Below are positions 221-2,245 of a stretch of 64,000 nucleotides of DNA, one piece after another (positions within the stretch are counted from its first letter, which is position 1; each line of letters opens with the position of its first letter). The DNA lies in contig NZ_AVPK01000003.1 of assembly GCF_000768685.1 (NCBI RefSeq), positions 62,001 to 126,000 on the forward strand. The letters run 5' to 3'. Under the pieces are notes generated by a model that saw only the letters and a program-made list of their open reading frames with translations, made no database searches and was not told the origin of the DNA. This DNA comes from Knoellia subterranea KCTC 19937 (GTDB lineage: Bacteria; Actinomycetota; Actinomycetes; Actinomycetales; Dermatophilaceae). The position numbers and the translations under genes are program-made.

Positions 221-919
221 ATGCCGTTGCGCGAGTTCCCCGCGCCCCGCTCCGATGCGTGGGTCGAGAATGCGCGCGCGTGGCTGGCGTCCCCCGGTGA
301 GGCCCTCGTGCCCCGGGGCGCCGCCACCGTCATGGTCGTGCGCGACTCCTCCGACGGGCCGATGGTCTTCGTCCAGCGACGGGTCTCGACGATGGCGTTC
401 GCTCCGTCGATGTATGTCTTCCCCGGCGGTGGAGTCGATGCCTCCGACGCGTCGGCTGAGTTGGACGACGTTGCCGTGGAGGCTCTGGCGCGGCGAATGG
501 AGCTCGGCATCGACGATGCGAAACCGTTGGTGGCAGCCGCGATTCGCGAGGTCGAGGAGGAGTGTGGACTCCGGCTGTCGACTGCTGACCTCGTGGCCCG
601 AGCTCACTGGATCACCCCACCGTTCGAGAAGCGCCGCTACGACACGTGGTTCTTCGCCGCGGCCATGCCGTCCGGTCAATCGGCCGTGGGGGACAGTGGC
701 GAGACCGACCACGACGCCTGGGTTCTCCCGGGAAGTCTCCTCACGGCATACAGCGAAGGTCGTGCGGTCATGCTGCCGCCGACGGTGGTCATGCTCGAGC
801 AACTGGCTGCGTTCGGGTCGGTGGCGGACTTCCTCGCCGATCAGCCCGCGCTGACGGCCGTGTCACCCGAGCTCGTCGACCTCGGCGACCGCCTCGTCAT
901 GCGCTCCGACATCCCCTGA
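221..919 (+). CDS. NUDIX hydrolase with long insertion
   Basis: A 232-residue NUDIX-family pyrophosphohydrolase. The Nudix box is split: FPGGGVDAS at residues 67-75 and REVEEECG at 109-116, separated by about 35 residues, the arrangement of the NUDT7/NUDT19-type subfamily, which often acts on CoA or acyl-CoA. Catalytic glutamates of REVEEE are present. AAGGACAGG upstream serves as ribosome binding site, and the motif GTATGCC overlaps the ATG. It sits between RidA and, after an inserted DUF559 gene, the MBL hydrolase, as in other actinobacteria. The substrate is unknown. Confidence 0.85.
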   Translation: MPLREFPAPRSDAWVENARAWLASPGEALVPRGAATVMVVRDSSDGPMVFVQRRVSTMAFAPSMYVFPGGGVDASDASAELDDVAVEALARRMELGIDDAKPLVAAAIREVEEECGLRLSTADLVARAHWITPPFEKRRYDTWFFAAAMPSGQSAVGDSGETDHDAWVLPGSLLTAYSEGRAVMLPPTVVMLEQLAAFGSVADFLADQPALTAVSPELVDLGDRLVMRSDIP

Positions 920-942: not shown

Positions 943-1093
943 GGACATGCAGTAGTGCCGTGGCTGTGTGCCGCCGGACATGCAGTAGGTGCCGTGCGTC
1001 GCTGAGCTGCGTGCGTGGCTGCCGGCTTCTCTGGGCGCCTGACGGGTCCATTGCATGTCCAACGGTGCGGACGCCGTGGACCACTGCATGTCG
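943..1093. repeat. Palindromic repeat array upstream of DUF559 gene
   Basis: Four copies of an 11-mer GGACATGCAGT: direct at 943 and 976, inverted at 1050 (ATTGCATGTCC) and 1083 (ACTGCATGTCg). Spacings are 33, 74 and 33 bp, so the array is symmetric about position 1018 and could fold into a two-stem hairpin. TGTGCCGCCGGACATGCAGT at 967-986 is identical to 2120-2139 on the other side of the gene. Confidence 0.85.
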
Positions 1094-1164
1094 GCCGGTA
1101 CGCGCCCGAGCGCCCCTGTGGATGACGGCCCGGGCGCCTCGGCGGAATGCGCAAGGCTGGGGCC

Positions 1165-2064
1165 ATGTCCGTCGCCAGCACTCTCACCCGTCTGGGTGGC
1201 TGCGCGACGACCAAGGAGCTGCGCAAGCACCACTCGCGCCGGGCCATCGCGGCCGCCACGGCCGCGGGTGAGGTGGAGCGCGCCGGCAAGGGGCGCTACG
1301 CGCTGCCGTCCGTCGGCGAGCACCGGCGCCTGGCCCACGCCCGCAAGGCCGCGCAATCCCACCTCAGCGCTGCCCTGGAACATGGCTGGAAGGTCAAGAC
1401 TGTCCCCGAGACGGCGCAGCTGACCTTCCCACGCCGCCGTCGGCTGCGGTCCGAGCACCAAGGAGGCTTCGAGCCGCACTGGGCCGTGCTGGAGCTCGGT
1501 GAGATCAAGGCGGGCGTCACGTCGCCGTTGCGCACCGTTCTCGATTGCGCCCGCACGCTGCCCTTCGACGAAGGGCTCGCCGTAGCCGACTCGGCGCTGC
1601 GCTCGGGCAAGGTCGACAAGGCCGACCTGGAGTGCGCTGCTCTCGTGCTCAAGGGTCCCGGAGCTGTCGCTGCCCGACGGGTGGCCAAGCATGCCGACGG
1701 CAGAGCGGCGAACCCGCTCGAGTCCGTGCTTCGAGCCCTCACCATCGAGGTGGGGCTGGAGCTGACGCCGCAGTTGGAGGTGGCGGATCCCGGCCTGTAC
1801 GCCAAGGTGGACCTCGGCAGCGAGGAACTGCGGCTCGTGGTCGAGGCCGAGGGCTACGAGACCCACGGCACGCGCAAGGGGCTGCGACGTGACTGCCGGC
1901 GGCACGCGCTCTTCGCGATCTGGGGGTGGGCGTCGCTGCGCTTTGCCTACGAGGACGTGATGTTCGAGCAGGAGTGGGTCCGGTGGGTCCTCAGGTCGTG
2001 GCTGGTGCTGCGGGAAGGCGGAACGCCGAGCTCACCGCCCAACAGGTTCCGCGACGCCGCTTGA
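1165..2064 (+). CDS. AbiEi-like N-terminal domain plus DUF559 nuclease-fold protein
   Basis: A 299-residue protein. Residues 1-50 (TLTRLGGCATTKEL through GRYALP) resemble the winged-helix antitoxin domain of AbiEi type IV systems. Residues 183-280 match DUF559, a Vsr/PD-(D/E)XK-like fold: ESVLR (E186), VDLG (D216), VVEAEG (E227, E229), then H234, RRDCRRHAL and GWASLRF. The conserved acidic residues are kept, so it may cut or bind DNA. ATG at 1165 is chosen because AAGGCTGGGG lies just upstream; an in-frame ATG exists at 1147. No toxin partner follows. The gene interrupts an otherwise conserved block and is enclosed by matching repeat arrays. Confidence 0.75.
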   Translation: MSVASTLTRLGGCATTKELRKHHSRRAIAAATAAGEVERAGKGRYALPSVGEHRRLAHARKAAQSHLSAALEHGWKVKTVPETAQLTFPRRRRLRSEHQGGFEPHWAVLELGEIKAGVTSPLRTVLDCARTLPFDEGLAVADSALRSGKVDKADLECAALVLKGPGAVAARRVAKHADGRAANPLESVLRALTIEVGLELTPQLEVADPGLYAKVDLGSEELRLVVEAEGYETHGTRKGLRRDCRRHALFAIWGWASLRFAYEDVMFEQEWVRWVLRSWLVLREGGTPSSPPNRFRDAA

Positions 2065-2095
2065 GCAAGCGACACTTGGGTCGGTGCCTGCCAAC

Positions 2096-2245
2096 GGACA
2101 TGCAGTGGTCGCCGGCGCCTGTGCCGCCGGACATGCAGTGCTCGCCCAAGTGGGGTTGGGGTTGTGTGTGACCAACGCAGTTCGTAGAGGAACTCGCCGG
2201 CCATTGCATGTCCGGCGGCCCGGCCTGCTGTCGCACTGCATGTCC
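2096..2245. repeat. Palindromic repeat array downstream of DUF559 gene
   Basis: Second array of four copies of GGACATGCAGT: direct at 2096 and 2129, inverted at 2203 (ATTGCATGTCC) and 2235 (ACTGCATGTCC). Spacings are 33, 74 and 32 bp, nearly the same layout and the same 150-bp length as the array at 943-1093, although the spacer sequences between copies differ. Confidence 0.85.

Follow-up and report, generated by a model that had tools for sequence, protein, structure and literature searches.

A nuclease gene between matching palindromic elements in Knoellia subterranea: a candidate low-copy, REPtron-like system with an EDxHD-type nuclease

Why should a single gene for a DUF559-type nuclease be enclosed on both sides by the same array of inverted repeats? 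The question is raised by a 64-kb stretch of Knoellia subterranea KCTC 19937 DNA (contig NZ_AVPK01000003.1, positions 62,001 to 126,000; hereafter the window), in which a gene for an AbiEi-DUF559 nuclease lies between two arrays, E1 and E2. An earlier note had proposed that this one nuclease-like gene is tied to its flanking palindromes in the way that RAYT genes are tied to repetitive extragenic palindromes (REPs), and the proposal is now supported by elements that match across the gene in many relatives, covariation of arms and protein, dispersed copies of the element, and a Vsr-like nuclease fold. On balance, we favor reading the locus as one cassette in a nuclease-element system of low copy number, REPtron-like in plan, with an EDxHD-type nuclease replacing the HUH transposase. 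The features of the locus, in window coordinates, are:

943..1093, strand not applicable: upstream element E1, the usual two-arm inverted repeat in doubled form, with the same arms as E2
943-953 (+), 976-986 (+), 1050-1060 (-), 1083-1093 (-): units of E1
1116..1125, + strand: CTGTGGATGA box, between E1 and the start codon
1165..2064, + strand: AbiEi-DUF559 nuclease gene, 299 amino acids, alternative start at 1147 (Pfam, alignments, AlphaFold, fold search)
2096..2245, strand not applicable: downstream element E2, with the same arms as E1
2096-2106 (+), 2129-2139 (+), 2203-2213 (-), 2235-2245 (-): units of E2

Remapping of the units bore out the direct-direct-inverted-inverted order given in the earlier note, with start-to-start spacings of 33, 74 and 33 bp in E1 and 33, 74 and 32 bp in E2, and confirmed that a 20-mer (967-986, 2120-2139) is common to both flanks. 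The positions of the eight reported copies, four per side, hold, but the copies are not identical, since five match GGACATGCAGT exactly and three carry one mismatch each (at 1050, 1083 and 2203); the length of 150 bp claimed for both arrays is right for E2, while E1 measures 151 bp. Exact GGACATGCAGT occurs five times within the 64 kb, every time inside E1 or E2, and 26 matches with at most two mismatches were found where 15.9 are expected, a number reached in 2 of 100 shuffles. The four-unit form was seen again in the same genome at C30:270220 and, with one outer unit diverged, at C3:94294; it is a local elaboration, and two arms make up the usual element.

Is the pairing of gene and elements peculiar to this locus? 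Of 268 relatives, the locus scan retained the best 80, and the named loci span Knoellia, Phycicoccus, Janibacter, Tetrasphaera, Serinicoccus, Terrabacter, Humibacillus, Nocardioides, Kribbella and others. Counts are given for 90 loci, which exclude L076-L082 as duplicates of named loci and come from Dermatophilaceae, Nocardioidaceae and other actinobacteria. A joint test, requiring an inverted repeat on either flank and arms matching across the gene at a score of at least 10, was passed by 53 of the 90, whereas the controls passed in 0 of 85 cases when windows were displaced by 1 kb and in 2 of 270 when flanks were mispaired; relaxing the score to 9 gave 56 loci against 1 shifted and 9 mispaired. 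A simpler flank-to-flank match, for which the L105 flank was too short, was likewise found at 53 of 90 loci, compared with 5 of 84 shifted controls and 12 of 540 mispaired ones, the latter mixing related loci so that some of these matches may be true relatives. When the flanks of 17 orthologs were read, most had a same-arm inverted repeat on each side, with arms varying among orthologs, and no obvious inverted repeat was seen in the flanks of L084 and L089. The downstream element often starts inside the final codons (median 31.5 bp before the stop, 56 loci); at the window locus, it lies 58 bp past the stop. Some loci that fail the joint test have a good repeat downstream only (for example L134, L149 and L165).

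The association reaches beyond the close relatives. At further DUF559/AbiEi-type loci (29-42% identity), flank cross-matches of at least 16 were found in 13 of 19, compared with 3 of 114 mispaired controls; the 19 omit L005, which lies at a contig end, and dropping L028-L030, which are near the main group, gives 10 of 16. Pfam assigned five of ten further proteins to DUF559, one to AbiEi_4 alone and one to AbiEi_1 plus MTES_1575, and found no match in three. Three Knoellia genomes (G003, G006, G007) have a second gene with arms of its own. Separately, distant paralogs in the window genome (L006 at G000:C1:236357, L008, L010 and L011) have other, longer matching flank repeats of up to ~100 bp.

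The arms change with the protein. They differ from one protein clade to another, and arm similarity tracks protein identity over 48 loci (Mantel rho 0.35, reached in 0 of 300 permutations, shared ancestry uncorrected). In an exploratory comparison, the alignment columns most linked to the arms include several in the AbiEi-like part of the protein, namely 85, 89, 91, 93, 105, 106 and 108.

Elements also occur apart from the gene. The window genome (33 contigs, 3.57 Mb) contains 41 occurrences of GGACATGCA, compared with 4 for the reversed control, and nine of the Knoellia-type inverted pair GGACATGCA-N60..88-TGCATGTCC, compared with none; by coordinates, the nine comprise the two window flanks and seven solo elements, and diverged copies are present at two further loci of the genome, L052 and L056. 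Across 58 genomes, such pairs number nine in G000 (the window genome), seven in G003, four in G005, two in G007 and one in G002, the other 53 having none. Two further arm types also occur as pairs. Pairs of GGACCGCCAC number 19 in 6 of 16 genomes; Terrabacter and Humibacillus account for 12 of them, and Kribbella kalugense, where the arm is longer and different, for 7 (four of these seven are covered in the length, spacer, motif and neighborhood analyses below). Pairs of GTCGGACGACC number 15; the 5 of 19 genomes that have them are all Nocardioides, and two other Nocardioides genomes with different cassette arms have none. Comparison of coordinates identified 5 of the 12 Terrabacter-Humibacillus pairs and 5 of the 15 Nocardioides pairs as cassette flanks, and the remainder as solo copies; genomes with exact pairs hold one to nine. 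Solo copies are intergenic in 37 of 40 cases, mostly beside 3' ends, and among 34 with both neighbors called, 18 lie between convergent genes, 14 between co-directional genes and 2 between divergent genes. Solo sites vary from species to species, and one is common to four Knoellia genomes.

Nocardioides pini has two near-identical solo elements in tandem, ~240 bp apart (L242 and L247, at G109:C1:297725 and 297966). In the window genome, a solo element (L256 8692-9200, G000:C29:126191) lies between the stop of a conserved gene and an apparent sensor-kinase remnant, truncated by comparison with G007. In G006 (L277), a near-perfect hairpin with arms of ~24 bp and unrelated sequence follows the orthologous stop at which G000 has a solo element.

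What is conserved within an element? Outer lengths fall into steps in Knoellia (83-85 bp in 16 copies, 94-96 bp in 6 and 105 bp in 1), and measure 72-74 bp (11 copies) or 83 bp (1) in the Terrabacter group and 78-80 bp (15) in Nocardioides; the patterns searched spanned ~30 bp in length, and the phase test is informative only where several lengths exist, that is, in Knoellia and for the one long Terrabacter-group copy. In Knoellia, spacers agree little better than random sequence (identity 0.36, compared with 0.34 when shuffled), and identity is somewhat raised in the other groups (0.38-0.42 against 0.31-0.36). Lengths stepping by about one helical turn, together with free spacer sequence, suggest that one protein complex grips both arms from the same face of the helix. 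A motif search of 54 spacers returned CRYGCTCAG with a log-likelihood of 64, compared with 17-22 in four shuffles, which used fewer starts and rounds and so bias the comparison toward the real set. Sites of this motif lie within 6 bp of the element center in 34 of the 54 spacers, as against 14-27 in shuffles. G003 and G005 have one solo element in common, in which the two arms are conserved along with 18 of 19 bp about the core. In the solo element that four species have in common, both arms remain intact, while the spacer is kept in one half and diverged in the other, with a length shift of ~10 bp. An element, by comparison across loci, has two inverted arms set apart by spacer DNA that often holds a central core, and the gene has one copy of its own element on each side. 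Another motif, GGCATAC/GTATGCC, was found in 7 of 54 spacers (0.1 expected) from several genera and looks common in these genomes.

The earlier note had also described the gene as interrupting a conserved block of NUDIX, metallo-beta-lactamase (MBL) and crp genes. The MBL gene is present in nine of nine genomes of the genus, the nuclease gene in six, and the NUDIX-MBL junction was read with and without it. At this junction the gene runs one way in G000 and G003 and is reversed, with other arms, in G005, G006 and G007. The site is a short empty spacer in G001 and holds another small palindrome (GGTCACC...GGTGTCC and its inverse) in G004 and G008 (L189, L191). In G002, whose cassette is located elsewhere, it holds a solo element with the same arms as that cassette. 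Over the whole set, 91 loci fall into 57 contexts, and both orientations, with differing arms, occur in four of the seven contexts having at least three members. Cassettes thus appear to persist long at their sites, yet these comparisons suggest that sites are also vacated, refilled or flipped.

The protein comprises an N-terminal winged helix, an AbiEi-like middle domain and a Vsr/EDxHD-type nuclease domain. The AlphaFold model (predicted local distance difference test score, 95) had the homing endonuclease I-Bth0305I as its best match in a fold search, which backs the Vsr-like fold ascribed to DUF559 in the earlier note, and nuclease-domain residues are invariant. One of the alignments, A2, was made without L105, L106, L129 and L163. 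No Y1 (HUH) transposase was matched by Pfam in 77 family members. Between E1 and the start codon, the CTGTGGATGA box resembles the reverse complement of a DnaA box; TGTGGA or its complement lies within 150 bp upstream of the match at 86 of 90 loci, compared with 11 of 445 control windows.

Taken together, these data lead us to propose a model whereby the protein would bind as a dimer, one subunit per arm and both on the same helix face, and its nuclease domains would nick or cut near the element center, between the arms. Such binding and central cutting would fit the phased arms, the enriched center, the nuclease fold and the long target that, according to passages in PMC3943268, is bound by a dimer of I-Bth0305I. 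Repair of the break from other copies could keep the two flanks uniform, carry solo elements to intergenic sites and allow a cassette to occupy an element in either orientation. A role for E1 and the TGTGGA box in controlling expression is also possible. The system would then be selfish or half-domesticated, a functional counterpart of RAYT/REP made from homing-endonuclease-type parts. Binding, cutting, movement and copy maintenance by the protein are inferred. It is quite possible, if tentative, that the actinobacterial AbiEi-fused DUF559/MTES_1575 nucleases as a whole form a widespread undescribed selfish class, whose dimers read clade-specific phased arms and cut a shared core, whose solo elements represent sites that were vacated or that act as seeds, and whose cassettes enter and leave either way.

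Several observations weigh against this model. The joint two-sided test was failed by 37 of 90 loci; G005 and G007 carry GGACATGCA elements while their detected cassettes have other arms, and G103 and G111 carry elements unlike their detected cassettes. The core is weak in the window arrays (4.1 and 4.0 bits), and one shuffle placed 27 of 54 motif sites near the center where 34 were observed; core orientation, the same in 12 of 18, is uninformative. Residue 227 is K instead of E in one aligned ortholog (L087). Comparison of empty, solo and occupied NUDIX-MBL sites, whose spacers are too diverged for the ends to be fixed, found no exact insertion junction or target duplication, and low copy numbers, together with several cassettes at one site across genera, mean that active transposition is not evident. 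The earlier note had named repeats scattered apart from DUF559 genes as evidence against the association; orphan elements and the failing loci partly answer to that description, while the central claim is still supported.

The chief rival is an autoregulator with a small regulon, in which E1 serves as the operator, the solo elements provide additional ones and the nuclease domain plays a secondary part. The winged helix and AbiEi-like middle domain, the position of E1 and the conserved box before the start codon, and the suitability of helically phased inverted arms for a DNA-looping regulator all speak for it; we nevertheless judge it unlikely, given the matching element at the 3' end of the gene, the scarcity of solo elements between divergent genes (2 of 34, with 18 convergent), the invariance of the catalytic-type residues and the variation of solo sites between species. 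The intergenic, mostly 3'-end location of the solo copies and the site common to four Knoellia genomes would also suit palindromes that serve the host in termination, mRNA stability or chromosome organization, with the protein a domesticated caretaker. Host palindromes of this kind are hard to reconcile with one to nine exact pairs per genome, with arms that change with the nuclease clade, and with an Rfam scan in which no family covered either array, and this explanation seems rather improbable.

A gene for defense or for an AbiE-type toxin-antitoxin system, with flanking repeats that do no more than aid its exchange, is suggested by matches to PADLOC AbiEi models (best E 1.6e-7) and by an NCBIfam anti-phage ProA model matched by 3 of 77 family members. 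The immediate neighbors, however, are by Pfam a NUDIX protein, a Lactamase_B (MBL-fold) protein and a cNMP-binding/Crp-type protein, and no AbiEii nucleotidyltransferase toxin was found among these three, the scan covering the window locus; arm-protein covariation and solo elements would also be left unexplained, and we give this idea little credence. That ordinary dispersed repeats flank the gene by chance could draw on the orphan elements and the failing loci, but it is already contradicted by the joint-test and looser-test controls described above and is scarcely credible. The cassette model therefore remains the one that we prefer.

Variants of a CCCGAAGTC/CCCAACCCGGGAATTGGGTGA-like repeat lie in several intergenic spots (window about 142-212; L062; L256 near 9100), and a below-threshold Rfam match to c-di-GMP-II-GAG at window 639-719, within the NUDIX gene (30.2 bits, cut-off 40), is probably due to chance.

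If the model is true, a large unexplained actinobacterial gene family (DUF559/MTES_1575 with AbiEi parts) would gain a testable role, and a REP-like partnership of gene and palindrome would have arisen separately on an unrelated nuclease fold. The natural arm-protein pairs from dozens of species provide a ready table for reading DNA specificity, and bear on how low-copy selfish elements persist.

How does the system compare with those already known? No open-access paper was found linking DUF559 with 'inverted repeat' or with AbiEi; those joining DUF559 with 'palindrom' concern other subjects, going by title and abstract start, and among the matches listed no title or abstract start describes the gene-element association. 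REPtrons (PMC8266576, PMC3733652, PMC2817692) combine an HUH transposase with 20-40 bp hairpin REPs, often in more than 100 copies per genome. The present system shares with them one DNA-processing enzyme gene between palindromic repeats, dispersed non-coding copies and enzyme-repeat co-evolution, but has an AbiEi-fused Vsr-like nuclease without an HUH transposase, elements of ~72-105 bp with two long-spaced arms, and at most nine exact pairs per tested genome. TIRtrons, in the account given in part of PMC3733652, also consist of a transposase-type gene with repeats on both sides, and these repeats may belong to a dispersed family; their enzyme belongs to another family, whereas here either flank is itself a complete inverted-repeat element. 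EDxHD homing endonucleases such as I-Bth0305I, to judge from the same passages of PMC3943268, offer the closest nuclease-domain fold and share the Vsr/EDxHD catalytic type, but their insertion destroys their own site, while here a complete two-arm element lies on either side of a free-standing gene, an AbiEi-like part is fused and further elements are dispersed. The MTES_1575 domain, a Vsr-fold restriction endonuclease domain inside a large multidomain HEPN protein in the relevant passages of PMC3710099, is assigned by Pfam to the nuclease family seen here; neither 'inverted repeat' nor 'AbiEi' appears as a term in that paper. AbiE (type IV) toxin-antitoxin systems share the winged helix and AbiEi-like middle domain of their AbiEi antitoxin, but here a nuclease domain is fused and AbiEii is missing from the immediate window neighbors scanned. 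We set the system apart as a new kind because it fails one defining feature of each known system that it resembles; if 'a gene plus its own palindromes' were taken as one kind, it would be a variant within that kind.
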